From: Pseudomonas synxantha | Lineage (GTDB): Bacteria > Pseudomonadota > Gammaproteobacteria > Pseudomonadales > Pseudomonadaceae | Direction: 5' to 3' | NCBI RefSeq assembly: GCF_900105675.1 | Contig: NZ_LT629786.1 | Location: forward strand, 3,224,001-3,288,000 | Length of the DNA stretch: 64,000 nt | Shown here: one piece after another, positions 19,233-63,533 of the stretch | How positions within the stretch are numbered: position 1 is the first letter of the stretch | Layout: each line of letters begins with the position of its first letter | Notes under the pieces: model-generated | Seen by the model: only the letters and a program-made list of their open reading frames with translations | Told to the model about the DNA's origin: nothing | Database searches by the model: none | Program-made: the position numbers and the translations under genes

Positions 19233-19257
19233 TAAACACTTTTTTTAATTGTGTTCA
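19233..19257. promoter_or_regulatory. Operator-like site A (TAAACA-N13-TGTTCA)
   Basis: One of the shared 25-bp sites of this cluster, with a poly-T centre, 66 bp upstream of the amidohydrolase start. The right half-site is a full match to the consensus; the left differs at one base (TAAACA). Confidence 0.6.
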
Positions 19258-19259
19258 TT

Positions 19260-19686
19260 TAATGCAGTTTTTCAAGCGTTTGGCTGGCTCTTGATTTTGA
19301 TCTAGAGCGCCCCGTCAACCACGCTGGCCGAGGTACCGAGTGGTGGGGCGAAGACCTTTTGGTTACTTTTGGCTGGGCCGGCATTCCGGGCGGTTGCCAA
19401 AAGTGACCCGCCGTAAGGGCGGAACCAAAAGAGGCCATTACCGCAGAAACGGATATGTACTCCGACCGATATCTCTGGCGCCCAACACACAGCCATCGCA
19501 GGCAAGCCAGCTCCCACCTTTTGATACGGTTTACACCCGGCAAGTGAGCTGCTCGCCTGTAAGACCGCTTTCGCGAGCAAGCCCGCTCCCACAGGTGGGT
19601 CGCGGGGCATCAGTCACATCCCGGTCGACCTAGAGGCCGCTTTCGCGGGCAAGCCAGCTACCACAGTATGATCCGGTGTACGTCGG
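19260..19686. repeat. Intergenic repeat patch: long inverted repeat and REP-like motifs
   Basis: No gene is visible between the amidohydrolase promoter and the P450 stop. A 76-bp imperfect inverted repeat bounded by CTTTTGGTT and AACCAAAAG occupies 19356-19431. Three REP-like pieces of the type GCAAGCC(A/C)GCT(C/A)CCAC follow at about 19497, 19571 and 19645. These are common extragenic repeats of Pseudomonas and may also stop transcription or stabilise the mRNA 3' end. Confidence 0.65.
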
Positions 19687-20964
19687 TCAATCCCACAACA
19701 CATGCAGATAATGCGGCCCGCGCAACTGCGCCCCCACGATCTGCGGCCCAGGCTTGGACGGGTCAAGGCGAATGTTCGGCATCAAGTCAAGAATGGCATT
19801 CAGCGCGCAGTTGATCTCCGTCTTGGCCACAAACTGCCCGATGCACATGTGCGGGCCAAAACCGAAGCCAAACGAGGGCTTGGCCTTGCGATCGATATCG
19901 AAGGTATCAGCTCGTTCAAAGGCGTCTTCGTCGCGGTTCGCCGAGGTTACGATGCACTGCACCATGGCGCCCTTGGGAATCGCCACACCGCGAATCTCCA
20001 GGTCCTTGGCGGCCTGGCGTACCTTGAACGTGGCCACCGGTTCAAACCGCACCGCTTCATCGATGGCTTTGTTGACCAGGCTGCGATCGTTGCGTACCCG
20101 CTCCAGCACATCCGGGTGCTGCAACAGCAACGACATCAAGGTGCCAAAGGTGCGCGTCGTGGTTTCGCTGGCAGCTGGCAACAACGAGCGCACGAACGTG
20201 GCGATTTCGTGATCGTCCAGGGACCGGCCCTGGTACTCGGCATTGATCAGGCGACTGATCAAATCATCGCCGGTGGCGCCGTTGGCGCGGCGCTCAGCCA
20301 CCACCGTCTTGACCACATCGTAAAGCGCCTTGGCCGCTTCCATCGCGGCACCGCGTGCGGCGGCGGCCTTTTCCGGGTCGACCTGGGGGCCGGCGAGAAT
20401 GGCCAATGCCCAGGCGGCGTATTGCTCGATCTGTTCAGGGCGGTCTTCGGGAAAGCCGATCAGCGAATAGATCACGCGGATCGGGAAATACAGCGCGAAG
20501 TCCATCAGGTCGGCGCCCTTGGCCGGCACCATGGGCTTGAGGTATTCCTCACGAATGACGCGGTCGATCTTGGTTTCTTTCCAGCGGTTGACCGTCTCTG
20601 GCATGAACACCGGTTGCAGCAGGTTACGGATATTCTTGTGGGCATCACCGTCCATCGCGGTAAGGATCAAACCATCAAAGAATGCGCCCAGGCCCTCGGC
20701 AATAAACCCGCTGGTGAACGTCCCGGCATCGCGCATCACGGCCATGACGTCGTCGTATTTGAACAAGGTAAAGGTGGGCCGACTGGCGTCCAGACCGGCA
20801 ATCGTCGGCACACCCAAACGCGCCATGAAGTTGTCCTGGAGCACCGGGGAGTTTGCGCGCATGTCGCGGTAAGTCGCGTGCAGGTCAATGTCGCTGGTAC
20901 CCCGGTAATTACTGGCGACATCGTTGAATGCCTTGGTCAGGTCACTCTGTGCAGGTGTGGACAT
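19687..20964 (-). CDS. Cytochrome P450 (CYP226-like)
   Basis: A 425-residue soluble bacterial P450. The haem motif FGFGFGPHMCIG places the thiolate ligand at Cys374. The I-helix reads LLPAASETTTR and the ExxR motif is EAVR. The start at 20964 is chosen because GGAG stands six bases before it; earlier in-frame ATGs lack a site. It is collinear with the second P450 at 49055-50332 (same length, same Cys position, shared AEGLGAFFDGLI block), so they are paralogues. P450s of dit clusters hydroxylate the diterpenoid skeleton, for example at C7; the regiochemistry here cannot be read from sequence. Electrons probably come from the ferredoxin/reductase genes at 42.9-44.5 kb. Confidence 0.93.
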   Translation of the reverse strand: MSTPAQSDLTKAFNDVASNYRGTSDIDLHATYRDMRANSPVLQDNFMARLGVPTIAGLDASRPTFTLFKYDDVMAVMRDAGTFTSGFIAEGLGAFFDGLILTAMDGDAHKNIRNLLQPVFMPETVNRWKETKIDRVIREEYLKPMVPAKGADLMDFALYFPIRVIYSLIGFPEDRPEQIEQYAAWALAILAGPQVDPEKAAAARGAAMEAAKALYDVVKTVVAERRANGATGDDLISRLINAEYQGRSLDDHEIATFVRSLLPAASETTTRTFGTLMSLLLQHPDVLERVRNDRSLVNKAIDEAVRFEPVATFKVRQAAKDLEIRGVAIPKGAMVQCIVTSANRDEDAFERADTFDIDRKAKPSFGFGFGPHMCIGQFVAKTEINCALNAILDLMPNIRLDPSKPGPQIVGAQLRGPHYLHVLWD

Positions 20965-21056: not shown

Positions 21057-21081
21057 TGGACGCTTTTTCGATAATTGATCA
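21057..21081. promoter_or_regulatory. Weak operator-like site K (TGGACG-N13-TGATCA)
   Basis: It lies 93 bp upstream of the P450 start. The half-sites are degraded, but the surrounding GCGAATATATG and TTTTTCGA align with site F at 34180, which supports a common origin. Confidence 0.35.
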
Positions 21082-21605: not shown

Positions 21606-22781
21606 TCAGTCGAGCCGTTCGATAATGGTGGCGGTACCCATGCCACCGGCGCAGCAGATCGCTTGCAAACCGTAACGCGCGCCACGTCGCTCAAGTTCGT
21701 TGAGCAAGGTGGTCATCAACCTCGCGCCACTGGCGCCCAATGGGTGACCAAGGGCAATCGCGCCGCCATTGACGTTGAGCTTGCTGTGGGGCACACCTGT
21801 TTCCTGCATCCAGGCCAGCGGCACCGAGGCGAACGCCTCATTGACTTCGAACAGGTCGATATCCGCAAGACTCAACCCGGCCTTGGCGAGCACCTTGTCG
21901 GTCGCGGCGATGGGCCCGGTGAGCATCAGCGTCGGGTCCGAGCCCACCGTGGTGAAGGCCACGATGCGCGCCCGTGTCTTGAGCCCGAGCTGACGCGCAG
22001 TATCGGCCCCCATGATCAGCAGGGCCGCGGCGCCGTCGCTGATCTGCGACGAATTGCCGGCGGTGATACGCCCGCTTTCCGGGCGAAAGCTGGTCTTGAG
22101 AGTCGCGAGTTTTTCCAGCGAAGTATCACGACGAATGGTCTCGTCGCGACTTAGCGTCGTGGCAGGCTCCTCCAGCGCCTTTTCCCGCAATGCCTCGACA
22201 GGTACGCCGACGATTTCGTTATCGAAATGGCCGGCATCGCTCGCGGCGGCCGCGCGCTGCTGGCTGGCCAAGGCAAACGCATCCAGCGCTTCGCGGCTCA
22301 GCGCCCACTTGTCGGCAATGCGCTCGGCGGCCTCACCCTGGCTGGTCAGTTCATAGTGCTGCGCTGCCATCCAACCGAATGCCTCGCCGTGGATCTCGCG
22401 GTTACTGCCCATGGGCACGCGGCTCATGTTTTCCGCGCCGCCCGCCACCACGATGTCGGCAGAGCCTGCGGCAATCATACCGGCCGCCAGGTGCACTGCG
22501 ACTTCACCGGAGCCGCATTTGCGGTCAATGGTCAGCCCTGGAATGGTCACCGGCCACCCAGCCCCAAGCAACGCGGTACGGGCAATGTTGGCCGATTGCT
22601 CGCCAATTTGCGTGACACAGCCAAAAATCACGTCGTCGACGCGCGTCGGTGACAGATCATTGCGCTTGAGCAACTGGTCGATCACCCACGCACCGAGGTG
22701 ATCGGCACGCACCCCCGCCAGGCCGCCGCGAAACCGGCCGATAGGCGTGCGCACCGCATCCACAATCACGATGTCGTTCAT
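21606..22781 (-). CDS. Acetyl-CoA acyltransferase (3-ketoacyl-CoA thiolase)
   Basis: A 391-residue thiolase of degradative type. The nucleophile is Cys89 in TIDRKCGSG. The His of GGAIALGHPLGASG and the second Cys in AICCAGGMG complete the active site. It cleaves a 3-ketoacyl-CoA with CoA to release acetyl- or propionyl-CoA. Its start overlaps the stop of the 3-hydroxyacyl-CoA dehydrogenase gene by 4 bp, so two sequential beta-oxidation steps are translationally coupled. Confidence 0.95.
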   Translation of the reverse strand: MNDIVIVDAVRTPIGRFRGGLAGVRADHLGAWVIDQLLKRNDLSPTRVDDVIFGCVTQIGEQSANIARTALLGAGWPVTIPGLTIDRKCGSGEVAVHLAAGMIAAGSADIVVAGGAENMSRVPMGSNREIHGEAFGWMAAQHYELTSQGEAAERIADKWALSREALDAFALASQQRAAAASDAGHFDNEIVGVPVEALREKALEEPATTLSRDETIRRDTSLEKLATLKTSFRPESGRITAGNSSQISDGAAALLIMGADTARQLGLKTRARIVAFTTVGSDPTLMLTGPIAATDKVLAKAGLSLADIDLFEVNEAFASVPLAWMQETGVPHSKLNVNGGAIALGHPLGASGARLMTTLLNELERRGARYGLQAICCAGGMGTATIIERLD

Positions 22782-23680
22782 AGCGCACTCGCCTTGAGCC
22801 CGGAACCCGCGACCGGCTTACCTTCTTCGTAGCGGTAAACCCCGTGCCCGGTCTTGCGCCCCAGGCGCCCGGCCGCGACCATTTTGATGATCAGTGGGCA
22901 CGGCCTGAATTTCTCCCCGAGGGTCTGGTGCAAGTAGCGCAGCACTGACAACCGCGTGTCCCAGCCCGTCAGGTCGCCCAACTCCAGCGGCCCCATGGGA
23001 TGGTTGAAGCCAAGGCGCAGCGCGGTGTCGATGTCTTCGGCGGTGGCGGTGCCTTCCTGCAGCATCCACATCGCCTCATTGCCCAGCAGGGCCGACATAC
23101 GGCTGGTGGTGAGCCCCGGGGACTCATTGACCACAATCGATGTTTTGCCCAACTGATCGCACAGGGTGCGCGTGCGGGCCACCACCTCATCGCTGGTCGC
23201 CAGGCCACGTACCAGCTCGATGAGCTTCATCTTGTGCACGGGGTTGAAGAAATGCATGCCGATCACCCGTTCGGCGCCCGGTACCGAGGCGGCAATCTCG
23301 GTGACGCTGAGCGCCGAGGTGTTGGTTGCAATGATTGCATCCGGCGCCAGCAGCGGTGCCGCCAGGCCGATCACCGCCTTCTTTACCGCCAGTTGCTCGG
23401 AGACCGTCTCCACCAGCCAGTTTGCGCCGGCGGCGGCTTCACTCAAGTCGCCGCCGGTCAGCAGGTTCGCCAGAGAAGCCTTGGCTTGCTCTTCGCTGAC
23501 CTTGCCCAGGCGCACGCCGTCGCTGAGGATTTTTTCGATACTCGCTCGGGCCTGGGTCAACGAGGCGGCATTGGTGTCGACCAGCAGCGTTGTAAAACCC
23601 GAACTGGCGAACGCGTGTGCGATACCGGTTCCCATCAAACCGGCACCGACGACCACTATTTTTTCTTGTTTGGCGTTCAT
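22778..23680 (-). CDS. 3-hydroxyacyl-CoA dehydrogenase
   Basis: A 300-residue NAD-dependent enzyme. The start at 23680 follows GAGAGA and opens the Rossmann motif VVVGAGLMGTGIA. Further landmarks are HFFNPVHKMKLIELV (catalytic His region), VVNESPGL, and the C-terminal domain with LGFNHPMGPLELGDLTGWD. It oxidises a 3-hydroxyacyl-CoA to the 3-keto ester used by the next gene, the thiolase. It lies 13 bp after an FAH-fold hydrolase gene. Confidence 0.95.
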   Translation of the reverse strand: MNAKQEKIVVVGAGLMGTGIAHAFASSGFTTLLVDTNAASLTQARASIEKILSDGVRLGKVSEEQAKASLANLLTGGDLSEAAAGANWLVETVSEQLAVKKAVIGLAAPLLAPDAIIATNTSALSVTEIAASVPGAERVIGMHFFNPVHKMKLIELVRGLATSDEVVARTRTLCDQLGKTSIVVNESPGLTTSRMSALLGNEAMWMLQEGTATAEDIDTALRLGFNHPMGPLELGDLTGWDTRLSVLRYLHQTLGEKFRPCPLIIKMVAAGRLGRKTGHGVYRYEEGKPVAGSGLKASAL

Positions 23681-23693
23681 TTTTGTCTCTCGA

Positions 23694-24545
23694 TTAAGCG
23701 TGGATTTTTCGCCCGACAACATTACGTAACGTGCCAATGCCTTCGACACTGGCCTCCACCACATCGCCCTCTTTAAGAAACAACCCGGTGCCCATGCCGA
23801 CGCCTGCGGGTGAACCCGTGAACAGCACGTCGCCACAGGCAAAGCTGGAGCGCTGCTGCACAAAGCGAATCAACTGGCCTACATCCCACGTCATTTCGGC
23901 GGTCGAGCCGTCCTGGCGCGTTTCGCCATTGACCTTCAACGTCAGGCGCAGCTTGGGCGAGCCCTCAGGGAACTCGTCCTTGGTGACGATCCAGGGGCCG
24001 AGGCCCGTGGTCTGGTCCTGGCTCTTGGCCGCGAATAAATCCATGCCGATCCCGGCCGCACCGCTGCGCTGCAGGTCGCGGGCACTGACATCATTGCCAA
24101 CGGTGTAACCCAGCACGCAGGCCAGCGGGTCTTCCAGATCGATTTCATGGGTGCCGATCACCGCCACCAATTCCACTTCGTGATCGAGCTCTTCGGTCAG
24201 TGGCGGAAAACGGATCGGATCATGGGCGCCTATCAGTGCGCCGTAGGCCTTGAGAAAGGCCACCGGCTGAGCCGGTGCCCCCAAGCCGAACTCCACCAAG
24301 TGCTTGGCGTAATTGGCGCCCGCGACCACTACGCGATTGACCGGCTCGATCGGCGGCAGCAAGCGCACCTTGGACAGCGGCAACGCAGGGCCGGCAATGC
24401 GCACCGAGCTGATCCCGCGTCCGGCAGCCACCGCCGGCGCCCAATCCTTGAACTCACCGGAAATCGGCGTCACTTCGTTCTGCGCAACATCCACCACGGC
24501 CCAGAACACGCCGGACGCGAAATATTCACAACGCGCCAGCTTCAT
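23694..24545 (-). CDS. Fumarylacetoacetate hydrolase-fold protein (1 of 3)
   Basis: A 283-residue FAH/hydratase-fold protein. The metal-binding Glu residues are in LDHEVELVAVIG, with GNDVSARD and FTGSPAGVGMG further on. Family members hydrolyse C-C bonds in diketo acids, decarboxylate, or hydrate/isomerise ring-fission products. Its start shares one base with the stop of the preceding amidohydrolase gene. Two further members are in this window (32421 and 38351). The third is closest in layout, so several ring-cleavage products may be handled in parallel. Confidence 0.9.
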   Translation of the reverse strand: MKLARCEYFASGVFWAVVDVAQNEVTPISGEFKDWAPAVAAGRGISSVRIAGPALPLSKVRLLPPIEPVNRVVVAGANYAKHLVEFGLGAPAQPVAFLKAYGALIGAHDPIRFPPLTEELDHEVELVAVIGTHEIDLEDPLACVLGYTVGNDVSARDLQRSGAAGIGMDLFAAKSQDQTTGLGPWIVTKDEFPEGSPKLRLTLKVNGETRQDGSTAEMTWDVGQLIRFVQQRSSFACGDVLFTGSPAGVGMGTGLFLKEGDVVEASVEGIGTLRNVVGRKIHA

Positions 24546-25609
24546 CAGGCACCTACCTTGCCCAACTTGGCGGGATCCAGGTGCAGCAGGCGGCAGGCAT
24601 TTTCATAGCGGATCTTGCGCAGGTCGGAATCCGACAGACGCAGCCCGTCGGTCAGGTCGTGACGCACCGCATCGCTACCACCGAAGTTGCTGCCGTACAG
24701 CACATGGTCGGCGCCAATGATGTCGACCAGGGCCTGGCGCATCGGCACTTCATGCAGCTCGACATCAAAGTAGAAGTTCTTCATGTATTCCAGCAGCGGC
24801 TTCTTGTTGAATTTGACGTCGAGGTTTTCGTTGGTCTTGGCCAGGCGTCCCAACTGGTACGGCACATAACCGCCACCGTGGGTGATGTACACCTTCAGAT
24901 TAGGGAAACGGTCGAGCACGCCACCGCAGATCAGGTTCCAGAAGCAGCGGCTCTCGTCGTACTGCATGCCGACGATGGCAGTCGTTTCATAGCGGTCGTC
25001 ATTGGCGTTCTTGCCCCAGGTGACCGACTGGTTGTAGCCGTGGATGAACATCGGCAGGTCGAGGTCGCAGAGAGTTCTCCAGACCACGTCGAGTTCCGGC
25101 GAGTCGAACTCCAGGCCACCAAAGTTGGCGCCACCGGCAACCATGCCTTTGGCTCCCAACTCGGTGCAGGCATAGCGCAATTCGGCGGCTGCGGCCTCGG
25201 GCGAATTCAATGGCACATGCGCCCAGAACATCAGGCGGTCAGGAGCGGCCGAGCAGTATTCGGCCAGGGTGTTATTGACGGTGCGCGCAAACGGCACCGC
25301 GAACTCGGCTTCCGTCCAGTACATGTAGCAATGGGACGGGACGGACACCACTTGCAGGTTTTGCCCCGCCTTGTCCATGCCGGCCAGGCGCACTTTCGGA
25401 TCGGCCCAGCGCGACAGGTACTCTTCAAGCTTTGGCCCGTTACCGGAACGTACGGCGGCTTTGCGCTCAGGCGAGCCCAGGCCCAGGATCCAGTCCCCGA
25501 CACGCAGTTTGATATCGCCGTCGGAATGTTGCTCGAAGAAAGGCCCCCAGTGCGGGTGCTGGTTGTAGTAGCCCGGATGGGGAGCATGAGCGTGGAGATC
25601 GATGAGCAT
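24545..25609 (-). CDS. ACMSD-type amidohydrolase-2
   Basis: A 354-residue TIM-barrel metallohydrolase or decarboxylase. The start at 25609 follows GAGG and opens MLIDLHAH, which holds the two metal His residues (His6 and His8). A third His is in MFIHGYNQ. The family's final Asp, usually in GSDxP, reads YGSNFGGSD here, so Asn stands where Asp is expected. The family carries out non-oxidative decarboxylation or hydrolysis. It is the first gene of the operon running to the CMD and P450 genes, 130 bp from operator-like site B. Confidence 0.87.
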   Translation of the reverse strand: MLIDLHAHAPHPGYYNQHPHWGPFFEQHSDGDIKLRVGDWILGLGSPERKAAVRSGNGPKLEEYLSRWADPKVRLAGMDKAGQNLQVVSVPSHCYMYWTEAEFAVPFARTVNNTLAEYCSAAPDRLMFWAHVPLNSPEAAAAELRYACTELGAKGMVAGGANFGGLEFDSPELDVVWRTLCDLDLPMFIHGYNQSVTWGKNANDDRYETTAIVGMQYDESRCFWNLICGGVLDRFPNLKVYITHGGGYVPYQLGRLAKTNENLDVKFNKKPLLEYMKNFYFDVELHEVPMRQALVDIIGADHVLYGSNFGGSDAVRHDLTDGLRLSDSDLRKIRYENACRLLHLDPAKLGKVGA

Positions 25610-25738
25610 GTCTAGGTACCTCGAAGTTGGCACTTTTTGTTGGGGATTAGCGCGGTGCCTTCACGCGACAAGGTCGGTCTGCCGCGAAAAGGGGAAGCCG
25701 TACGGCTCGCTGCTAAGGCTTGAGCTTAAATTTAATTT

Positions 25739-25763
25739 GAGCATAAATCAAAAAACTGTTCAT
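25739..25763. promoter_or_regulatory. Operator-like site B (TGAGCA-N13-TGTTCA)
   Basis: A shared 25-bp site with one mismatch in the left half, 130 bp upstream of the ACMSD-type gene that starts a six-gene catabolic operon. Confidence 0.6.
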
Positions 25764-25955: not shown

Positions 25956-26696
25956 TTAACGGCGGGTGCGCGACGTGGAGCCCATGATCAAGGCCCCGAG
26001 CAGTTTTTTCACGCGGATCGGGAACAGACGTCGCCCTGCCGCTTCCGGCACCAGAATTTCGCTGAGCACGTAGCGGATGATCATTTCACAGACCAACTCC
26101 CGGTCCAGGCGAACGCCCAACCGGTCGTCCCAATCGTCGAACACGATGCTCAGGCCGTCCTGAAAACGCACGATCGAGTCATGAAAAATTCGCCGGAAGA
26201 AGCCCAGGGCGTAATCCGGCGCCACGACCAGCAGGCGTCGTGCCCGGCTTTGTTCCAGGTAATTGTCGAGGTAAGCGAACAAGGCGTTGAGGCGCGCTTC
26301 GGGGTCGGTGATCGGGCCCAGTTCCTGGGACAGCGAACTGTGGAAGCTTTCGCGCTTGTGTCGCGAAAACGTGTCCAAAAGGTCTTCTTGTGAGGCGAAA
26401 TACCGATAAAAAGTCCCCCGCGAAACCCCCGCGACCTGACACACATCGAGAATCGAAATGCGCTCGGCGCCGGACATCAACACCACTTCTTCAGTGGCCT
26501 TGAGGATATTCGCGATGGTTTCTTCCGAGCGCCGGTTCGGCTTGACCGGTGCACCGGACACGGCTTTGTTCCCGGCGCGCCGCTCGACGGGCTTGACCGC
26601 ACGGGGAGCCGCTTCTGCCACTGCGGCTTTTTTAATTTTTGGGGTTTTCGCAGCTGGCTTAGGCGTTTCGGCTTTCTGCGGCGCAGTTTTTGGCAT
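25956..26696 (-). CDS. TetR-family regulator with basic N-terminal tail
   Basis: A 246-residue regulator. The HTH is at about residues 80-105 (ISILDVCQVAGVSRGTFYRYF), followed by a helical ligand-binding domain. The first 55 residues are unusual: rich in Lys, Ala and Pro, like the histone-H1-like tails of some Pseudomonas DNA-binding proteins, and probably disordered. It is divergent from the CoA-ligase gene across 182 bp, so it likely controls that promoter and itself. It is a candidate reader of the shared TGAACA-N13-TGTTCA sites; a CoA-ester ligand would fit the neighbourhood. Confidence 0.88.
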   Translation of the reverse strand: MPKTAPQKAETPKPAAKTPKIKKAAVAEAAPRAVKPVERRAGNKAVSGAPVKPNRRSEETIANILKATEEVVLMSGAERISILDVCQVAGVSRGTFYRYFASQEDLLDTFSRHKRESFHSSLSQELGPITDPEARLNALFAYLDNYLEQSRARRLLVVAPDYALGFFRRIFHDSIVRFQDGLSIVFDDWDDRLGVRLDRELVCEMIIRYVLSEILVPEAAGRRLFPIRVKKLLGALIMGSTSRTRR

Positions 26697-26783: not shown

Positions 26784-26808
26784 AAGACATTTTATTAGTT
26801 TGTATTTA
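26784..26808. promoter_or_regulatory. Weak operator-like site C in the TetR/ligase divergent region
   Basis: AAGACA-N13-TATTTA has the same left half as site E and the same spacing but a poor right half. A separate perfect 8-bp palindrome, AACATGTT, lies nearby at 26763-26770. Either could be the TetR operator. Confidence 0.3.
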
Positions 26809-26878
26809 GAATCAAATTCTCTCACCAAAATAAAATCAGGTAACCCCTTCGCTGCGGGCGCCTAAACGGAGAACCGAT

Positions 26879-29371: not shown

Positions 29372-29396
29372 GAGCCACTCCATTTTTTGTTTTTAG

Positions 29397-29421
29397 TGAA
29401 CATTTTTGGTTATAGTGTTCA
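29397..29421. promoter_or_regulatory. Operator-like site D (perfect TGAACA-N13-TGTTCA)
   Basis: The only site in which both half-sites are perfect and symmetric. It lies 26 bp from the SDR start and 53 bp from the DUF2889 start, so it can control both divergent genes. Confidence 0.7.
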
Positions 29422-29473
29422 AATATAACCGATTTCTTACGCCTGAACAGCTGTAGTACAAAGGATATTGAGG

Positions 29474-30814: not shown

Positions 30815-30901
30815 GAGTCATTTCCTCACTGTTATTGTTGTGCTGATAGAGAGCGCTGCCAGCGAGCGCGGCCTGCAAGGGCCGCGCCGCCTGGCACGGG
30901 C

Positions 30902-32350: not shown

Positions 32351-32375
32351 AAGACACTTTTCAGATTTGTGTATA
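32351..32375. promoter_or_regulatory. Operator-like site E (AAGACA-N13-TGTATA)
   Basis: It lies 49 bp upstream of the dioxygenase alpha start. Its ACACTTTTC core is identical to site F. The right half is weaker (TGTATA). Confidence 0.5.
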
Positions 32376-34179: not shown

Positions 34180-34204
34180 ATGACACTTTTCGAAAATATG
34201 TTCA
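34180..34204. promoter_or_regulatory. Operator-like site F (ATGACA-N13-TGTTCA)
   Basis: It lies in the divergent region between SDR 2 (66 bp) and the DUF35 gene (49 bp). The right half-site is perfect and the centre contains the palindrome TTTTCGAAAA. Confidence 0.6.
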
Positions 34205-35850: not shown

Positions 35851-36636
35851 TCAGTACAGCACGCAGGCCACCTCGCTGCAGAACTCGATCAACGCCTTGC
35901 CCAGTTCGGCAAGGCCTTCCTCGTCGCGCTGCCCGCGAAACATCACGGCCGAGACGGTGAAGTCGATGCTGTCGGACGGCGAATAGATCGGCGCCGCCAC
36001 CGCCAGGATGCCGACCGAAAAATGCCCGTCGTCCATGGCCCAGCCGCGCTCGGCCGCCAGTTTGACCTCCTCGCGATAAGTCGCCAGCGGCAACGGTCGG
36101 GCCCAGCGGATGGTCTCGTAACCGCTTTGCACCAGAGGGTCTTCCATGTCGATCTGGGTCGCGAACATGCGTCCGCTGGCGCCCATCAGCAGTGGCAAGC
36201 GTTGGCCTTCGGCCATGTCGATGCGCACGTCGGTCGGGCTGGCGGCGGAGCTGACGATCACGATCCGATCCGGGCTGGTGCGGCGCCACAGGGTGATCGT
36301 CACCCGCAGGCGCGCGGCCAGGTTCTGCAGCAGCGGCTTGGCCATCTGCACACGATGGCCCTGGGTCACTTGCTGTTCCACCAACCGCGCCAGGCCCAGG
36401 CCGACCGAGTAGCGCTTGGACATGGCACTGAAATCCACCACATCCTCCTGCACCAGCGTGCGCAGGATGTTAAAGCAGGTGCTGGGGTTGATTGCCAATT
36501 GTCGGGCGATGTCCACCGAACGTTCGGGCGTGCCGACCTGGCTGAGGTAGCGCAGGATGCGTATGGCATTGGAAACCGGCTTGACGGTAACCGCTGTGCC
36601 CAATTTAGTGCTGTCGTTGACGTCGGAAGAGTCCAT
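35851..36636 (-). CDS. ditR: IclR-family transcriptional regulator
   Basis: A 261-residue regulator. The winged HTH spans about residues 20-85 (AIRILRYLSQVGTPERSVDIARQLAINPSTCFNILRTLV). The IclR effector domain follows with RIVIVSSAAS, LMGASGRMFAT, RGWAMDDGHFSVGILAVAAPI. The published dit cluster encodes an IclR activator, DitR, of the ferredoxin gene; family and position agree, so the symbol is used with caution. It is convergent with the thiolase-fold gene and lies downstream of the MFS gene. Its own ribosome site is weak. Confidence 0.85.
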   Translation of the reverse strand: MDSSDVNDSTKLGTAVTVKPVSNAIRILRYLSQVGTPERSVDIARQLAINPSTCFNILRTLVQEDVVDFSAMSKRYSVGLGLARLVEQQVTQGHRVQMAKPLLQNLAARLRVTITLWRRTSPDRIVIVSSAASPTDVRIDMAEGQRLPLLMGASGRMFATQIDMEDPLVQSGYETIRWARPLPLATYREEVKLAAERGWAMDDGHFSVGILAVAAPIYSPSDSIDFTVSAVMFRGQRDEEGLAELGKALIEFCSEVACVLY

Positions 36637-39232: not shown

Positions 39233-39233
39233 G

Positions 39234-41036: not shown

Positions 41037-41273
41037 TCAAACGGCGTCGTCTGCGGCGGTGATGGGCTCCAGCCAGATGGCTTCGGCCGGACACGCTGCG
41101 GCACCTTCGCGTGCTTCTTCTTCAAGCTCCACAGGCACGCGGGCATCGTCGAAGTACACCAGGCCATCGGCGTCGAGTTTGTAGACACTGGGGCAGATCG
41201 TGGCACACAAGCCATAACCACAGCAGCGGCTACGGTCTGCCACGGCCTTGAACTGCGCAGGTTCTGAACTCAT
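41037..41273 (-). CDS. ditA3: [3Fe-4S]/[4Fe-4S]-type ferredoxin of the ring-hydroxylating dioxygenase
   Basis: A 78-residue ferredoxin. Cysteines 17, 23 and 61 match cluster ligands in CxxYxxC...CP; Tyr20 stands at the second Cys slot, as in [3Fe-4S] ferredoxins, with extra Cys18 and Cys27 nearby. Most dioxygenases use Rieske or plant-type ferredoxins; the published DitA system is known for this other type. It probably feeds electrons to the dioxygenase at 30.2-32.3 kb, or to a P450. AAGGAG precedes the ATG, and operator-like site H lies 37 bp upstream. Confidence 0.9.
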   Translation of the reverse strand: MSSEPAQFKAVADRSRCCGYGLCATICPSVYKLDADGLVYFDDARVPVELEEEAREGAAACPAEAIWLEPITAADDAV

Positions 41274-41309: not shown

Positions 41310-41334
41310 TGAACACTTATTTATTTTATGTGCA
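41310..41334. promoter_or_regulatory. Operator-like site H (TGAACA-N13-TGTGCA)
   Basis: It lies 37 bp upstream of the ferredoxin start and 274 bp upstream of the divergent MFS gene. The left half is perfect and the right has one mismatch. The rest of 41335-41607 has no gene; a long frame runs into the MFS gene from 41431 but lacks a ribosome site. Confidence 0.6.
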
Positions 41335-50436: not shown

Positions 50437-50461
50437 TTCGTTTGACCCGGGGTCAAACGAA
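50437..50461. promoter_or_regulatory. Perfect 25-bp palindrome between P450 2 and TetR 2, probable TetR operator
   Basis: Arms TTCGTTTGACCC and GGGTCAAACGAA are perfect inverted repeats around a single G. It is 105 bp from the P450 start and 39 bp from the TetR start. It is unlike the TGAACA-N13-TGTTCA sites, so this unit has its own switch. Confidence 0.75.
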
Positions 50462-56256: not shown

Positions 56257-58788
56257 TCAGCGGGCGCGCCGGGGTAAGGCGGCCTTGGTCAATGCGTGAT
56301 TACGCGGCTGGGCCGCCGGCCTGCGGCTGTCTTGCTGCTGGCGTGTGTCCTCCAGGTCGAGGGCGGCCCCGCCCTTGGAGTTGCCCTTGGGGTTAAGCAA
56401 AAAGTGCGACAGCGCCGGGATCAGCACCAGTGCGCCGAGCATGTTCCACAGGAACATGAAGGTCAGCAGGATGCCCATGTCGGCCTGGAATTTGATCGGC
56501 GACCAGGCCCAGGTGATCACGCCGGCGGCCATGGTCAGGCCGACCAGCGCGACGACGCGGCCGGTGAAGTCCAGCGAACGCCGGTACGCCACGGCCAGGC
56601 TGCCGCCACGGGCCTGCACGGCCAGTTGCACGCTGAGCAGGTACAACGCGTAATCGACCCCGACCCCCACGCCCACCGCAATCACCGGCAGAGTGGCAAC
56701 CTTGAGGCCGATGCCCAGCCAGACCATCAGCGCCTTGCAGATAATCGTGGTCATCAGCAGCGGGATCAGCGCCACCAGGGTCGCGCGCCAACTGCGGAAG
56801 GTCAGCAGGCACAACAGCGCAGTGGCGCCGTACACCGCCAGGTACATGGTGATAATGCCCTTCTCGACTTCGATATTGGTCGCCGCCTCGATGCCGGCAT
56901 TACCCGCCGCCAGCAGGAACTCTACCGGATGCTCGGCGCCCGCGGCGGTGTTGTGGGTGTTGGCGAAATCTTCGGCCACCTTCAATACGCGGTTCAGCGT
57001 GTCCGCCTTGTGGTCGGCCAGGTAGGCAATGATCGGCGTCACCGAACACTGCTGGTTGGTGATGCCCGGCGCGGAAATCATCGCGGCATCCACGGCCGAG
57101 TTGGTGATCGCCTGGTCACGGCTGATGCTCAGCCATTTCGGGCTGCCCTCGGCCATGCCCGAGCTGATCATGCGCACGGTTTCGCCAAGGGACTGGGTGG
57201 TCTGCACCCCCGGGGTCTGCCGCAGGCGCCAGGCCAGTTGGTCCATGCTTTGCAACGACTGGTAGAGGCGGCAGCTGTCTTCGTTGGTCTTGACGATGAC
57301 CACGAACTGATCGCTCGACAGCCCGTAGTTTGCAGTGATGTAGGCGTTGTCGCGGTTATACCGCGAGTCGGCGCGCAGCTCCGGCGCGCCGGGGTCCAGG
57401 TCGCCCACCTTGAGGTGCATCATCACCGCGGTGCCCGCCAGCGTCACGACCAGCGAAAGCGCGATCACCGCCGTGGCCATCGGCCGCTCGGTAAAGCGGT
57501 CAAGGCCATGCCAGACGCGCCCAAGCACGCCGCGATTGGCTTCACCCGCCTGGTCCTTGGCGATCGCGATACGCGCCGCTTTTTGGCTCACGCCCAGGTA
57601 TGAAAGCGCCACCGGGATCAGCAACAGCTTGGTGAAGATCAATACCGCGACGCCGATACTGGTGGTCAGCGCCAGGTCGCGAATCACCGGGATATCGATG
57701 ATCACGAGCACCGCGAACCCGACGATATTGGTCAACAGTGCTGTCAGGCCGGTGAGGAACAGCCGGCGAAAGGTGTAGCGTGCCGCGACGTATTTATGGG
57801 TGCCACGGCCGATATCCTGGAGGATGCCGTTCATCTTCTGCGTGCCATGGGAGATGCCGATGGCGAAGATCAAAAACGGTACCAGAATCGAGTACGGGTC
57901 CAGGTCGTAACCCAGGATCTGCATCAACCCCAGCAGCCATACCACCCCGGCCACTGCCACACCCACCAGCAGCAGCGTGCTGCGCAGGCAGCGGGTATAG
58001 AAATACACAAACAGACCGGCGATCACCACCGAGGCCCCGAAAAACAGCATCACCGAATACAGGCCGTCGATCAGGTCGCCGACCAGCTTGCTGAAGCCGA
58101 CGATATGAATCGCCACCTTGGGGCTTTCGAGAACGCGAATCTTGTCTTCGAGCTGTTTGGAGAAGTCGCCGTAGTCCAGCGGTTTGCCGGTCTGCGGGTT
58201 GGTATCCAGCAGCGGCGCGACAATCATGCTCGACTTGCCGTCATTGGCCACCAGGTTACCAATGATGCCAGCGCGCATGATGTTACTGCGCAGCGCCTGG
58301 ATCGACTTCGGGCTGCCGTCATAGTCAGACGGCATCACCGCACCACCGTCGATGCCCTCCTCCGTGACTTCCTTCCAGCGCACGATGGGCATCCACAACG
58401 ACTTCATCCAGGACCGATCCACGCCGGGTATCAGGTAGAGGGTGTCGTTGACCTTTTGCAGGGCGAGCAGATAGTCGGCGTCGTAAATATCACCGGTCTT
58501 GTTTTCCACCACTACGCGAATGCTGTTACCCAGGCCTGGCAACTGACTTTTGTAGGCCATGTAGTTCTTGATGTAGGGGCTGGAGCCGGGAATCATTTTT
58601 TCGAAGCTGGCATTGACCTGCAGGCGCGTGGCGAAAAAGCCCAGCGTCACGGTTGCAAGCAAGCAGGCAACGATAACCAACATGCGGTTTTTGAAAATGA
58701 CCCGCTCAAACCAGCCGCCGGAGTTCTTGTCGAAGTCCTCCAGGTTGGCAATCACTGGCATCCCGCTGTTGAATTTTTGCTCGACCAT
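56257..58788 (-). CDS. RND-superfamily (MMPL-type) transporter
   Basis: An 843-residue inner-membrane protein. One helix near residues 33-53 is followed by a large periplasmic loop, a five- to six-helix bundle (about 240-415), a further helix near 435, a second loop and the last bundle (about 675-815). This two-fold repeat is the RND/MMPL layout. The C-terminal tail is basic. No membrane-fusion or TolC-type partner is encoded nearby; instead the operon has YCF48-like, DUF1329 and DUF1302 proteins. Such sets accompany the use of hydrophobic substrates, so transport of diterpenoid or lipid across the envelope is likely, direction unknown. Confidence 0.92.
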   Translation of the reverse strand: MVEQKFNSGMPVIANLEDFDKNSGGWFERVIFKNRMLVIVACLLATVTLGFFATRLQVNASFEKMIPGSSPYIKNYMAYKSQLPGLGNSIRVVVENKTGDIYDADYLLALQKVNDTLYLIPGVDRSWMKSLWMPIVRWKEVTEEGIDGGAVMPSDYDGSPKSIQALRSNIMRAGIIGNLVANDGKSSMIVAPLLDTNPQTGKPLDYGDFSKQLEDKIRVLESPKVAIHIVGFSKLVGDLIDGLYSVMLFFGASVVIAGLFVYFYTRCLRSTLLLVGVAVAGVVWLLGLMQILGYDLDPYSILVPFLIFAIGISHGTQKMNGILQDIGRGTHKYVAARYTFRRLFLTGLTALLTNIVGFAVLVIIDIPVIRDLALTTSIGVAVLIFTKLLLIPVALSYLGVSQKAARIAIAKDQAGEANRGVLGRVWHGLDRFTERPMATAVIALSLVVTLAGTAVMMHLKVGDLDPGAPELRADSRYNRDNAYITANYGLSSDQFVVIVKTNEDSCRLYQSLQSMDQLAWRLRQTPGVQTTQSLGETVRMISSGMAEGSPKWLSISRDQAITNSAVDAAMISAPGITNQQCSVTPIIAYLADHKADTLNRVLKVAEDFANTHNTAAGAEHPVEFLLAAGNAGIEAATNIEVEKGIITMYLAVYGATALLCLLTFRSWRATLVALIPLLMTTIICKALMVWLGIGLKVATLPVIAVGVGVGVDYALYLLSVQLAVQARGGSLAVAYRRSLDFTGRVVALVGLTMAAGVITWAWSPIKFQADMGILLTFMFLWNMLGALVLIPALSHFLLNPKGNSKGGAALDLEDTRQQQDSRRPAAQPRNHALTKAALPRRAR

Positions 58789-58823
58789 GTTTTCTGTCTC
58801 GTAGGGGAATCGTGCCGACCGCG

Positions 58824-59942
58824 TTAATCAGCCTTGGCGATATCGATGACCTTGGCGCCGTTGAAGCGCGCAACGACCAGGCTCCCGGCCTGCTCGGTGG
58901 CGCTGGCGGCGTACACCTCGCCCACTCGCCCATTGGCCAGTTTGGTGACGTGCAGGGTCTGGCGATCCACCTTGACCAGTTGCCCGCCCTGGCTCACCAC
59001 GATCAGGGCTGCGCCCTGTTCGACAATGCTCACCAGGCTGCCATTGAGTTGAGTGTCCAGGGCCTGCCAGCTCTGGCCGTCATCGCGACTGGCAAACAGA
59101 TTGCCGCGTAGCCCGAACGCCAGCAGCAGCTGGTCGAAAGCACGCACGCCGAAATAGGTCCCGGTGTACGGGGTGTCGATTTTCACGAAACGTTGCTGTT
59201 GGTTGTCCAGGCGCAGCAACAGCCCCTGTTCACCACTGATGTAGAACGTACCGTTGTGCTCAGCCAAGCCATACAGGTGCATGCGCTTGGGGTTGTCCGC
59301 CCGTTCGATCCACGGCAGCCAGGTTTTCCCGGCATCCTCGCTGCGCAGGATCATGCCGAAGGCGCCGACCGCAAAGCCGTGGCCTTGTGCGTCAAACAGC
59401 ACGTCGAGCAATGGCACCGGCAGTACATCAGCCGTCGCCGACGAGCCCATCGCGCGGCTGACTTCCTGGACCATATCCGCCGCGTCCTGGTCACCGCTCT
59501 CGGCGCGTTGGCCATAGACGCTATTGAGGACGCCGAGCAATTGCCGGCCATCCATTTGCACCGCCCAACTGAGGCCACCATCGGTGCTGTGCAGTACCAC
59601 GCAATCGTGGCCGACAATCCAACCGTTTTGCGCGTCACTGAAACGCACTTGCACAAAGTCACTGGAGACCGGGCTGGGCACTTGCTCCCAGGTCTGGCCG
59701 TTGTCGCGCGAGCGCTGGATCAGGCCGTGCAGGCCCACACTCACCAACGCATCGCCGGCACGTGCAACGCCCAGCAACGGCGACGCCAGTGGGCCTTCGA
59801 GCAGGCTGGCCGGCTCTTGCAGCGGGTCGATCAGCGCAGCGGCTGCCTGCGCATGACCTGCCGCCATCAGCGCGGCGATCAGGGCAATGTTCAGCACTCG
59901 CGTGAGCGGGTTGGAAAGTCGTACAAGGCGTTGGCTAATCAT
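58824..59942 (-). CDS. Exported YCF48/BNR-repeat beta-propeller protein
   Basis: A 372-residue protein. The start at 59942 follows GAGGATA; the signal peptide ends near GHAQA-A. Repeats of the BNR/YCF48 kind are clear: SRDNGQTWEQV, STDGGLSWAVQ, SEDAGKTWLPW and SRDDGQSWQAL, giving a six- to seven-bladed propeller. It is annotated in many genomes as photosystem II stability-like, which has no meaning here. It probably works as a periplasmic adaptor of the MMPL transporter encoded next. Confidence 0.9.
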   Translation of the reverse strand: MISQRLVRLSNPLTRVLNIALIAALMAAGHAQAAAALIDPLQEPASLLEGPLASPLLGVARAGDALVSVGLHGLIQRSRDNGQTWEQVPSPVSSDFVQVRFSDAQNGWIVGHDCVVLHSTDGGLSWAVQMDGRQLLGVLNSVYGQRAESGDQDAADMVQEVSRAMGSSATADVLPVPLLDVLFDAQGHGFAVGAFGMILRSEDAGKTWLPWIERADNPKRMHLYGLAEHNGTFYISGEQGLLLRLDNQQQRFVKIDTPYTGTYFGVRAFDQLLLAFGLRGNLFASRDDGQSWQALDTQLNGSLVSIVEQGAALIVVSQGGQLVKVDRQTLHVTKLANGRVGEVYAASATEQAGSLVVARFNGAKVIDIAKAD

Positions 59943-60073
59943 TATTTTTATCCTCACCAGGCCGGGGTCCCGGCGCCGGCGCGCATCTGACGATTGACGC
60001 GCTGGCGACAGGACCACCTCTTCAACTGCGCGCACCTCCAGGGTGCGCGCAGGTCACCGCATGCCGCTTGATG

Positions 60074-61438
60074 CTAGCGCTGGGTTTCGCGCGCCACGAT
60101 CGCCTCGGGGTTCATATCCCGTTCGGAGCGGGGTTTATCGACGAACTTGTAGCCGCCCTTCAGGCCGTCGTTGAGCAGTGCCCACATGCCTTTGTTGAAG
60201 TCGTACACCACGTTCTTGACGTTGTACGGCAGGGTCTTGTCGTACAGCTGCACGCCACTGAGGAAGATCGCACGGTACAACGCGCCGCTCTGGTCCCAGG
60301 CGTCATACAGGCCGATGCCGTAGGTGTCTTCATCCAGGTAATAGGTACGCTTGCTGTAGACGTGACGCTTGCCCGGTTTCAACGTGGCTTCCACTACCCA
60401 CACGCGGTGCAGCTCCCAACGCTCGCACGCCGGGTTGGCGTGGTGGGTGAGAAACTGGTCGTCCTGCTTGCACTCGAAGTAGAACTTGTAGGCGTTGTAC
60501 GGGATGTACATTTCCTTGCGGCCCACCAGCTTGTAGTCGAAGCGGTCCTGGCTGCCGGAGAACATTTGCAGTTCGTCGAACAGGGTCACGCCGCCCTGGC
60601 TTGCCACCGGGGTATCGAAGGAAAACTCGGGGGCCAGTTTCACCCGGCGTTGACCCGGTGAATAACTGAACGCACGACGCGGCTTGGTGGTGGGGTCCAT
60701 GTAGTCGTTGATGCCGGTCACTTCGCCAGAACGCCGCGCCGGGTAGTTATTCAGCGAGTACACCCGCGCATACATGTTCGGGTCACGGTCCGGCTGCTCG
60801 GTCTGGTAGTACGGCTGCTCCTCGAACGTCGCCTGTTCGGCGGCCTTGGTCCGCGAGCCATTGGCGTCTATCACCCAGCTGTTGGACGAGCTGGTGGTGG
60901 AGTAGCCATGGCCGATCTTGTAGCGCAGTTGCTGGTTCCAGATCACCTCGTTGCCGGTCTTGGGGATCGGGAACGGCAAGCCGCCACGGCAGGCGACGTC
61001 CACTGCCAGGCCTTCCTTGGTGGTGTTGCAGCCGGTGGCATTGCGCGTGGTTGCAGCCAGCACATCCTGCGGGTAGGCCGTGGTGCGATGGCTGGGGTAA
61101 ATATCGAAGTAATAATCGGGGTATTTCTTCAGGACTTCTTTTTGCCCTTCGCTGAGCTTGTCGGCGTATTGCGCCACGTTCTGCGCGGTAATCCGGAACA
61201 GGGGTTTCTCATCACGGAACGGGTCGGCCCAAAAGCCACTTTCGGGCTTGAAGTCTGCAGGAGCCTTGGTCAGGCCACCGGTGTAGGCCGGAATGGTGCC
61301 TTCGGCATTACCTGCCTGAATCGACCCAAATGCAGTGAGGGTTTTACCGATCTGCGCCGCTTCTTCCGGGCTGACGGCGGCGATGCTGCTGGCAGCAAAG
61401 CCAAGCAGTGCGATGGACAAGGCAATTTGTCGTTTCAT
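60074..61438 (-). CDS. DUF1329 exported protein
   Basis: A 454-residue protein with a signal peptide (MKRQIALSIALLGFAASSIA) and the DUF1329 fold, likely a LolA/LolB-like curved beta sheet that binds lipids. Recognisable blocks are GTIPAYTGGL, FFRITAQN-like PLFRITAQNVAQYADKL, YPDYYFDIYPSHRTTAYP and the Trp/Tyr-rich C-terminus. It lies between the DUF1302 and YCF48 genes; DUF1302 and DUF1329 nearly always occur together. A periplasmic carrier of the hydrophobic substrate is a fair inference. Confidence 0.9.
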   Translation of the reverse strand: MKRQIALSIALLGFAASSIAAVSPEEAAQIGKTLTAFGSIQAGNAEGTIPAYTGGLTKAPADFKPESGFWADPFRDEKPLFRITAQNVAQYADKLSEGQKEVLKKYPDYYFDIYPSHRTTAYPQDVLAATTRNATGCNTTKEGLAVDVACRGGLPFPIPKTGNEVIWNQQLRYKIGHGYSTTSSSNSWVIDANGSRTKAAEQATFEEQPYYQTEQPDRDPNMYARVYSLNNYPARRSGEVTGINDYMDPTTKPRRAFSYSPGQRRVKLAPEFSFDTPVASQGGVTLFDELQMFSGSQDRFDYKLVGRKEMYIPYNAYKFYFECKQDDQFLTHHANPACERWELHRVWVVEATLKPGKRHVYSKRTYYLDEDTYGIGLYDAWDQSGALYRAIFLSGVQLYDKTLPYNVKNVVYDFNKGMWALLNDGLKGGYKFVDKPRSERDMNPEAIVARETQR

Positions 61439-61468
61439 TCAGACAGGCTCCGTTTTTATTGGATTTGT

Positions 61469-63121
61469 TCAGAAGGAGGTTTTGAACGTGAATGCCAGCC
61501 AGCCACGGTCGGTATTACCGACGCCGCCGTTGCCTCCCACGGTACCGTTGGACAGGTTCTTGGACTGGGCATGGGTGTCGGCGTAGCGCAGGCCAAACTC
61601 GTACTGCTGCTGGTAGGTGAACTTGACCCCGGTAGACCAGGCCAAGGCACCTTCACTGCCACCGCCGGCGGAAGCGGCGTTACCGTGAATGCCGTAGTTG
61701 ACGGTCAATGGGACTTCCAGATCCCACGACGGGAAAATGTTCAGGTATTGCGGCGTGTAGTTGACCGCAGCGGCATAGTAGTTACGGGTAGAGCAACCGT
61801 CCGACTCATCGCCGGAATTGGCAACAGCTGGGCTGCGCCCGCTGGTACAGGCAGCGTTGCCCTTGTATTTGAACAGTTCCTCGTGCTCGGTGACTTTGGC
61901 CAGGTGGCTGAAAGCGAACTCTGCGACCAGCGTGGCATTCTCGGCAATGAAGTTACGCGGCACGCCATACACGGCGTTGGCGATGAAGTGGATGGTGTCG
62001 CCGCGAGGGCCTTCGTCATCCAGGGTGCTGACGCCGGTCGCGTTCAGTGCGCCGTTCATGCGATAGGACAATTCACTGCCCACGGCGATCGAGTCGAACA
62101 CCCGCGCGAAGCTGACGCCGGCCAGTTTCACCCCACGTGGGTACACCACGCGGTACTCACCCAGGTTCGCCTTGATTTGCGGGGCCAGCCACGGCTGGTA
62201 ATCGTCGAACTGGCGGTAGTAGGCGCCGAAGGTCGACTCGATGGCCTCCAGGTTGTATTTGGCCATCACGCCCCAGTTGGCGCCGTCGCGGCCAAATTTG
62301 GAGTTCTGGCGCTTGAACGCGCCAGCACCGGCAGGTAACTGGTCCGGGCCTTCAAACAGGAAGTCCGCGCCGCCGAAATAGGTGCCACCGTAAGGGATAC
62401 GGGTGTTGTCCCATTCATAGAAATACTGCCCGGAAATCGACAGAGAATCGGTGACTTGCGCTTTCGCCGAGACTTGGCCAACAGGCAAAAATACTTCTTT
62501 TGTCTCAATACCAGGGCTTGTGGCGGCTTTTACCCCATCACTTGGCGCCTGGGAGTAGGAAACGGAGTGGGCACCGAACAGCAGGCCTTCACCCCAATAG
62601 TTGGTGTGCCGACCAACCTTGACGTTGACCGGCGTGTCGCCCAGCTGGAAATTCTTCCAGATGAATGCGTCCAGGATTTCGCCCGATGGCCCCCGCACGT
62701 AGCGCTTTACTTCGTCGCTGTACCGGTCGTTTTCATAACTGGTCTGGCCACCCACCTGACTTTTTACGCCAGTGTCGCGATAAGCATTGTCGTACCAGCC
62801 GGCGAGGCTCAGGCGTGCGCCCCACTCGTTCAAGTATGAAAAATCGACTTCGGTAAACAGATCGACCCGATTTGTCACGATGTCGTGTTTGCCGAACTTG
62901 CCGTCGGATTCGTCGTAGGTAGGGTTATTCATGATGTGACTGTCCTGGCCATCCATACGCATGCCCAGGTTGTAACGCACGGTGTTGTCCCAACGCAGGC
63001 GGTAGTCGGGGTTACTCAGGTCGAACGAAACTGCGTGGGCACAGCTCATGCCGCTGAGCACCGCCAGCGCGACAGCGCTACGGCTGAACACCTGCCGACC
63101 GTGCTTGGTCATGTCTTTCAT
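61469..63121 (-). CDS. DUF1302 outer-membrane beta-barrel protein
   Basis: A 550-residue protein. The ATG at 63121 follows AAGG; a GTG nine bases upstream is less likely. The signal peptide ends CAHA-V. The mature protein has alternating aromatic strands (YRLRWDNTVRYNLGMRM, YGLRYADTHAQSK-like EFGLRYADTHAQS) and ends in FKTSF, the C-terminal Phe signature of barrel proteins. It is thought to be a porin-like uptake or export channel. It is the first gene of the operon. Operator-like site J lies 286 bp upstream. Confidence 0.9.
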   Translation of the reverse strand: MKDMTKHGRQVFSRSAVALAVLSGMSCAHAVSFDLSNPDYRLRWDNTVRYNLGMRMDGQDSHIMNNPTYDESDGKFGKHDIVTNRVDLFTEVDFSYLNEWGARLSLAGWYDNAYRDTGVKSQVGGQTSYENDRYSDEVKRYVRGPSGEILDAFIWKNFQLGDTPVNVKVGRHTNYWGEGLLFGAHSVSYSQAPSDGVKAATSPGIETKEVFLPVGQVSAKAQVTDSLSISGQYFYEWDNTRIPYGGTYFGGADFLFEGPDQLPAGAGAFKRQNSKFGRDGANWGVMAKYNLEAIESTFGAYYRQFDDYQPWLAPQIKANLGEYRVVYPRGVKLAGVSFARVFDSIAVGSELSYRMNGALNATGVSTLDDEGPRGDTIHFIANAVYGVPRNFIAENATLVAEFAFSHLAKVTEHEELFKYKGNAACTSGRSPAVANSGDESDGCSTRNYYAAAVNYTPQYLNIFPSWDLEVPLTVNYGIHGNAASAGGGSEGALAWSTGVKFTYQQQYEFGLRYADTHAQSKNLSNGTVGGNGGVGNTDRGWLAFTFKTSF

Positions 63122-63533
63122 ACGAGCCACCTTTTATTTTTATTTTTCAGTCGTTTATGTGAGATCGGTAGAACGCTTTCTGCTGTATTGCGGGCAGGTG
63201 TCGCGCACCTTGCCCCAAGCGCCTCAGCCCTATCTGTCCAACTTCCCAACAGCTGCAGGCCCAGCGGCTTGGAAATCAAATTAACCGAGAAAAACAAATA
63301 ATTCCATATAAAGATTTCAATTCTATATTCAGAATCACAAGCTTCAGTACCCCATCGGTTCACACCTTCACAACCTACAGAGCTCGGCACATCCACGCAG
63401 ACATATTGCACATAAAAAACTTAACTGTTCAATTGTGTTTTGATCCGGCGTCGGTTTGCGTTCTAATGGGCCTTGCCGGACGCGGCCGCCGCGTCGTCGC
63501 AACGCCCATAAAAACAAGAGGAAAAAGCCGCGA
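63122..63533. other. Divergent intergenic region between DUF1302 and SDR 7
   Basis: A 412-bp AT-rich region without genes. It must carry promoters for both the envelope operon (minus) and SDR 7 (plus). Operator-like site J is at 63407-63431. Confidence 0.5.
63407..63431. promoter_or_regulatory. Operator-like site J (TGCACA-N13-TGTTCA)
   Basis: A shared 25-bp site with one mismatch in the left half. It lies 103 bp upstream of SDR 7 and 286 bp upstream of the DUF1302 gene, linking the envelope operon to the catabolic regulon. Confidence 0.6.

Follow-up and report, generated by a model that had tools for sequence, protein, structure and literature searches.

Scattered operons in a 64,000-nucleotide stretch of the Pseudomonas synxantha genome (assembly GCF_900105675.1, contig NZ_LT629786.1, positions 3,224,001 to 3,288,000; hereafter the window) carry a 25-bp palindrome of the type TGAACA-N13-TGTTCA (T-site) in their promoter regions, raising the question of whether these operons are controlled together and, if so, by which regulator. 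The genes concerned probably form a cluster of the abietane diterpenoid (dit) type, serving the breakdown of conifer resin acids. We find that the palindrome is genuine and that it marks out a regulon spanning the whole cluster. To judge from the sequence comparisons described below, it is probably the operator of DitK, a TetR-family protein encoded at 25956. The T-sites are listed in window coordinates, with scores from a matrix scan and, where available, the number of loci in which a counterpart was found.

19233..19257, T-site upstream of an amidohydrolase gene (17860-19212, minus strand); score 27.7; counterpart (amido1) in 46 loci
21057..21081, T-site, weak copy, upstream of a cytochrome P450 gene (19687-20979, minus strand); score 12.0; P450 sites in only 9 loci
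25738..25762, T-site upstream of amidohydrolase, FAA-hydrolase, HCDH and thiolase genes (21606-25633, minus strand); score 24.6; amido2 group, 51 loci
29397..29421, T-site between a divergent SDR gene (28571-29383, minus strand) and DUF2889 gene (29468-30229, plus strand); score 25.6; 52 and 51 loci
32351..32375, T-site upstream of ditA1A2 (30239-32302, minus strand); score 11.7; counterpart in 6 loci
34180..34204, T-site between ditG/ditH (minus strand) and the OB-fold/thiolase-like ditF genes (plus strand); score 13.7; 11 loci per side
41310..41334, T-site upstream of ditA3, ditB, C, D, E and ditR (35851-41273, minus strand), facing an MFS gene at 41431 (plus strand); score 22.9
63407..63431, T-site upstream of DUF1302, DUF1329, BNR and MMPL envelope genes (56257-63130, minus strand; Pfam assignments); score 18.7
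68822, 75234, 79424, 100521 and 102147, five T-sites to the right of the window, in window numbering, from the matrix scan

All nine strings quoted in an earlier note on this DNA were present, one of them starting at 25738 and not at 25739, and both the 13-bp spacing and the AT-rich centre that it described were borne out on re-checking. Counted loosely within the window (TGAACA-N13-TGTTCA with up to three mismatches), the palindrome showed no enrichment, with 19 occurrences observed and 17.7 expected. With the AT-rich centre included and up to two mismatches allowed, the 6.84-Mb genome matched the pattern at 14 separate places, of which 12 lie within 83 kb (3243233-3326171), from the site at 19233 to 38 kb past the window; with up to three mismatches, there were 30 forward matches in the genome, compared with 14 and 13 for the reversed-pattern control. 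Because the centre-included pattern was derived from the window's own sites, a matrix built from other genomes served as the independent test. A first matrix iteration drifted to plain AT-richness and was superseded by matrices from cross-species sites. From 109 25-mers collected in other genomes, three identical to own sites were dropped; the remaining 106 distinct ones trained the T matrix, which was applied to 224 kb around and including the window, with 240 kb from twelve other places in the genome as background. The scan returned exactly 13 sites scoring at least 11.7 (range 11.7-27.7), eight inside the window and five beyond its right end, the next best score being 7.1. The maximum was 6.2 in the reversed region, 7.7 in the background and 4.2 in the reversed background. 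From -40000 to 19232 no score exceeded 6.4, in agreement with the earlier claim that the core genes to the left are free of sites. Of two weak copies proposed, that at 21057 was retained on its score of 12.0, and that at 26784 was dismissed, since its score of 5.3 resembles chance matches (three above 5 in the 240-kb background); possible third half-sites at 100502 (7.1) and 25721 (5.3) were likewise indistinguishable from chance by matrix score. Neither the sampled stretches nor the whole-genome pattern search revealed an equal frequency elsewhere. The proposal that the scattered operons form one regulon is thus well supported, and the regulon reaches 38 kb beyond the right end of the window.

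Alignment of 116 unique sites, own genome included, gave the extended half-site A(-15)nnTGAACAnWWW about the two-fold axis, with T(-12), C(-8) and A(-7) conserved at 95-98%, G and C nearly absent from -5 to -3, and A at -15 in 75% of the sites. Both strands were counted, which imposes symmetry, and sites were selected by their core half-sites and AT-rich centre; the flank (e.g. A at -15) alone is therefore an independent finding. Spacing was compared across 80 DitK loci (the best 80 of 128 confirmed), reaching into Betaproteobacteria. With up to one mismatch, spacing 13 gave 156 matches in 66 loci, compared with 0-3 matches for each of the other spacings from 6 to 23 and none for the reversed control at spacing 13. 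A slightly stricter centre gave 150 matches in 65 loci, comprising just 74 distinct 25-mers, which means that near-duplicate loci inflate the spacing count. With up to two mismatches, a T match was present in 74 of the 80 loci (control, 1). At many of the own-genome sites a TATAWT-like (-10-like) stretch lies directly 3' of the downstream half, the left half resembles a -35 element, and the median distance from the end of the site to the coding match is 26-105 bp, depending on the gene group. The site at 19233 is nested in a longer inverted repeat, CTGCATTAA ... TTAATGCAG (window 19223-19267).

As reader of the palindrome the earlier note had named either of two regulators, a TetR or an IclR protein; the evidence favours the former (DitK), and the latter (DitR) seems to own a different operator.

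25956..26696, minus strand, DitK, TetR-family (Pfam TetR_N), with a 53-residue basic N-terminal extension; proposed reader of the T-site
35851..36636, minus strand, DitR, IclR-family (Pfam IclR_C, HTH_IclR); proposed reader of AGAAT-N3-ATTCT (A-site)

The name DitK comes from the database record (P0034) of a relative that is 74% identical. Its helix-turn-helix was recognized by TetR_N (PF00440, 35.9 bits against a cutoff of 24), and DitR comprises HTH_IclR (PF09339, 29.5 bits) and the effector domain IclR_C (PF01614, 60.6 bits). A structure model of DitK of moderate confidence (13 helices; mean predicted local distance difference test score, pLDDT, 73.4; predicted template-modelling score, pTM, 0.61) displays the all-helical TetR fold with a ligand domain, and TetR regulators lead the 50 fold matches listed. 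In this model residues 1-53 form no helix and have low confidence; they are basic (net +10), the net charge of the extension ranging from +2 to +13 across 21 aligned sequences. Three tandem DitK-like TetR genes occur in a Burkholderiaceae metagenome-assembled genome (MAG; L160:10001-11900).

The T motif tracks the dit cluster and DitK. Among 398 Pseudomonas genomes searched, DitK and DitR each occur in the same 20, all of which contain the T motif (up to one mismatch) with 3-14 strand matches, compared with 1-2 strand matches, never more, in 26 of the other 378. As the two regulators share the same 20 genomes, co-occurrence is unable to separate them within Pseudomonas, and covariation of the recognition helices was uninformative, both helices being nearly invariant. 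Separation came from Pseudomaricurvus alcaniphilus (G423), which has a DitK match (52%) together with matches to ditA1, A2, B, C, F, OB, H, amido2 and others. A search of this genome for DitR came back empty at E values up to 1 (13 first-look candidates scored), and by eye none of the long open frames between ditB and ditF, where ditR could lie, was IclR-like. Its T-sites nevertheless number 10, scoring 9.9-23.1 against a reversed-sequence maximum of 6.1 (200 kb), with five at counterpart promoters (P450, amido2, DUF2889/SDR, OB/ditH and ditB), one before the ligase gene and four without counterpart. The best A-sites there scored 11.7 (within a coding match), 8.3 and 7.3, where the control reached 7.0, and none precedes a recognised dit gene. 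Zoogloea oleivorans Buc, the second genome without DitR among 28 genomes of DitK loci tested, keeps a T-site at ditK and gives weak help to the separation, being possibly incomplete, with DitR present in a conspecific MAG (G415). DitR without DitK was also sought, in samples of 350 genomes from the class to which G411 belongs and 180 from its order, and at E 1e-50 the two centre genomes alone matched. Plasmid searches yielded one Massilia and one Caulobacter plasmid with both regulator types. On Croceicoccus and Novosphingobium plasmids encoding a DitA1 relative, neither a DitR (E 1e-40) nor a DitK (E 1e-25) match and no T-site was found in about 31 kb each; distant TetR genes are present. In Pseudomonas sp. 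14P_8.1_Bac3 (L078, L083), DitR and DitK lie about 1 kb apart, with no ditA1, ditF, ditG or ditH match in the 20 kb around them.

Comparison of aligned ditK/ligase promoters revealed a second palindrome, which is the conserved palindrome of the promoter around the dismissed copy at 26784.

26808..26820, A-site, AGAATCAAATTCT, in the divergent promoter of ditK and the CoA-ligase gene

The degenerate form AGAA[TC]N3[AG]TTCT is present at this promoter in 61 of the 80 ditK loci, as a single copy in 60 and as two copies in one (L148). In the dit-like plasmid cluster of Caulobacter sp. FWC26 the A-site is a multi-promoter motif: 12 matches with at most one mismatch were counted in 80 kb (reversed control, 0), 11 being intergenic by the annotation, and the T motif gave a single match. 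A-like sites precede ditR in Massilia putida, M. timonae and Aromatoleum (equalled by none of 300 shuffles) and, more weakly, in Marinobacter (p 0.11-0.13). The Escherichia coli IclR box also has GAA-N5-TTC geometry. On the strength of the sites before ditR in several lineages, the Caulobacter motif and this shared geometry, the A-site was assigned to DitR, and AGAAT-N3-ATTCT looks like the DitR operator. The Caulobacter sites (L175, L176) stand before genes for TonB receptors, a P450 and other catabolic proteins.

Promoters of ditK were tested against 300 shuffles each in 23 loci chosen from the 80, 15 of dit type and eight of FAO type (eight of 10 fetched, three being close Zoogloea relatives). 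No locus reached 0/300 for both motifs: T did so in 8/8 FAO-type loci and A in 11/15 dit-type loci (the rest having p 0.01, 0.05, 0.05 and 0.25), and none of the 15 dit-type loci has a T-site at this promoter. Among 31 rows of ditR promoters, A reached 0/300 in L173, L186, L189 and L194. These patterns would be explained by an interlocked circuit of DitK (reading T) and DitR (reading A) whose wiring has been swapped between lineages, ditK bearing A in dit-type and T in FAO-type loci, and ditR bearing T in certain betaproteobacteria of dit type and A in certain genomes of FAO type, with the DitK half-sites two helical turns apart and binding aided by the basic tail. We offer this composite reading tentatively, as possible but somewhat short of an even chance. 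The swap between types is not clean, since L189 is dit-type yet has A at ditR, with T also at p 0.003. In Zoogloea-type dit clusters (L187, L188, L191, L193), an A-like site replaces the T-site at the ditG/OB divergent promoter.

Several observations weigh against DitK as the reader of the T-sites. DitR is present (E 1e-15) in 26 of the 28 genomes of DitK loci tested, so that the separation of the two regulators rests mainly on Pseudomaricurvus, a genome whose completeness is unstated and that likewise gave no match to ditD, ditE or ditG. At up to two mismatches, six of the 80 DitK loci lack a T match in the DNA covered, and the matrix scan found no T-site at ditK's own promoter in the window. 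At the ditR promoters of L183, L184 and L190 (betaproteobacteria), T and not A reached 0/300, and most ditR promoters tested have neither motif, which for most pseudomonad rows fits the position of ditR behind ditA3-ditE, on the same strand and downstream of the T-site at 41310. The Caulobacter plasmid also encodes a DitK-like TetR (35%), a potential reader of the A-site there, and a half-site spacing of 19 bp is long for one TetR dimer. What weighs most against the simple model is that in P. abietaniphila BKME-9, which we take to be ATCC 700689, DitR is reportedly an inducer-dependent activator of ditA3, whose promoter bears a T-site here. The DitR of the window is 75% identical to that of ATCC 700689 (L107/G398), and is the proposed reader of a palindrome other than the 25-bp site.

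In an alternative reading, DitR itself reads the T-sites, possibly as a tetramer on half-sites two turns apart and activating or repressing, and DitK reads the A-site and controls only itself and the ligase gene. Consistent with this are the co-occurrence of DitR with the motif (26/28 distant genomes tested, 20/20 Pseudomonas), the A-site at ditK's own promoter in 61/80 loci, the reported activation of ditA3 by DitR in P. abietaniphila, and the T-sites before ditR in L183, L184 and L190. We regard it as unlikely, given that Pseudomaricurvus retains T-sites with DitR not found, that ditK promoters carry T in the eight FAO-type loci tested and ditR promoters carry A in several lineages, and that the apparent overlap with -10-like elements suits a repressor better than an activator. 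More improbable still is that the T-sites are read by a second TetR protein (TetR2, at 50500) or by some other regulator from the cluster, for example an AraC protein (L003:13508, followed within this genome only). Close TetR2 orthologs (best match at least 49%) are present in most genomes tested, including G423, but TetR2 owns a conserved palindrome in its promoter, as the earlier note had noticed, which we could place.

50437..50461, palindrome TTCGTTTGACCCGGGGTCAAACGAA, promoter of the TetR2 gene (50500-51144, plus strand); conserved, distinct from the T-site and A-site

Of 26 rows, the window among them, 20 matched its pattern, TTTGACC-GGTCAAA (one loosely, and some rows come from the same genome). 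Close TetR2 orthologs are absent from G406-G413, G416, G418 and G419 (best match at most 37% identical, or none), and T-sites are kept despite this lack in G407, G408, G411 and G418, with 4-8 forward T matches compared with 0-1 in the control; G409, G410 and G419 have just 1-3. That the palindrome is a mere AT-rich symmetric promoter shape and no operator, as the adjoining -10-like sequences, the -35-like left half and the unenriched loose form might suggest, is scarcely credible given that spacing 13 is unique among 6-23, that matrix scores in the 240-kb background peak at 7.7, and that three or more strand matches are confined to the 20 DitK genomes among the 398 Pseudomonas.

With DitK as the probable reader, we infer that it would hold no fewer than 13 promoters in a catabolic regulon for resin acids (abietane diterpenoids), spanning the window and 38 kb beyond. 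Because the T-sites lie where the core promoters would be expected, many adjoining a -10-like TATAWT, bound DitK would block RNA polymerase and so repress by occlusion, and a single symmetric site could serve two divergent genes. What releases DitK may be an acid of the pathway or the corresponding CoA thioester; one candidate is a diterpenoyl-CoA that the ligase encoded divergently from ditK would produce. The half-site separation of 19 bp, two helical turns, suggests two DitK dimers or arms per operator, and the long operator may be occupied by two dimers or by one arm-assisted dimer. DitR, for its part, would read AGAAT-N3-ATTCT in the ditK/ligase promoter; with an A-site there and ditR lying behind the ditA3 T-site, the two regulators would control each other, and the effect of DitR on ditA3 would have to be indirect, possibly through the A-site-bearing ditK/ligase promoter.

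The assignment of the cluster to the dit type comes from a ditA1A2A3 ring-hydroxylating dioxygenase with ditB, C, D, F, H and R as neighbours, the names being assigned from similarity in family and order.

41037..41273, minus strand, ditA3, a 78-residue ferredoxin, recognized by eye from its sequence

Pfam and neighbourhood analyses further revealed, besides ditA1 and ditA2, an extradiol dioxygenase, FAA hydrolases, SDRs, a CoA ligase, P450s and MFS carriers, as well as envelope genes encoding DUF1302, DUF1329, BNR/YCF48 and MMPL transporter proteins. The gene order from ditR to amido1 is common to the window and the P. abietaniphila locus (L107). Behind the five outer T-sites lie genes for an amidohydrolase, a GMC oxidoreductase, a zinc-binding dehydrogenase, a CoA-transferase and a glutathione peroxidase; by annotation, glutathione peroxidase and zinc-binding dehydrogenase genes also lie within the dit-like clusters of two plasmids, one from Massilia and one from Caulobacter. 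The DUF1302/DUF1329 envelope pair is present in three copies within about 28 kb (window 60074-63130; L003:4925-8295; L004:301-4317).

The dit genes are described in PMC10710418, PMC12628601, PMC3570484 and PMC13063091, with ditR named as IclR-type in PMC12628601, and the passages of these four papers that were covered make no mention of an operator. Neither a dit operator nor a DitK regulon was found described in a search that was without Martin and Mohn 2000 and Smith et al. 2007, so an earlier description is possible. In the literature covered, the enzymes of resin-acid breakdown by dit clusters are mapped, and no regulon or operator was found. The cross-genome matrix flags likely pathway genes, including the envelope operon and those encoding the CoA-transferase, glutathione peroxidase, GMC oxidoreductase and zinc-binding dehydrogenase, and the three palindromes make the dit control circuit open to direct testing.

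Known TetR regulators offer several points of comparison. TetR repressors of the QacR/TtgR type bind palindromes of at least 25 bp as pairs of dimers. TtgR was among the sequence and fold matches of DitK, and QacR was not among the matches inspected; unlike DitK, both are drug-efflux regulators, and a double-dimer arrangement would be a conjectural likeness. The folds nearest to the DitK model include EthR2, the TetR-family FadR of Bacillus, and KstR. FadR, among the best fold matches (5gpc, 5gp9, and 3whc with stearoyl-CoA; 16-20% identity), governs a fatty-acid regulon, unlike the dit regulon. The match to a stearoyl-CoA complex suggests an acyl-CoA-type ligand for DitK, and FadR and KstR are both acyl-CoA-responsive. 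KstR of Mycobacterium (5fmp, 3mnl, 5cxg; 18-21% identity) is a TetR-family repressor of cholesterol catabolism that presides over a large polycyclic-terpenoid catabolic cluster through a short palindromic operator; compared with KstR, DitK adds a basic N-terminal extension of 53 residues, and the half-sites of its candidate operator are 13 bp apart.

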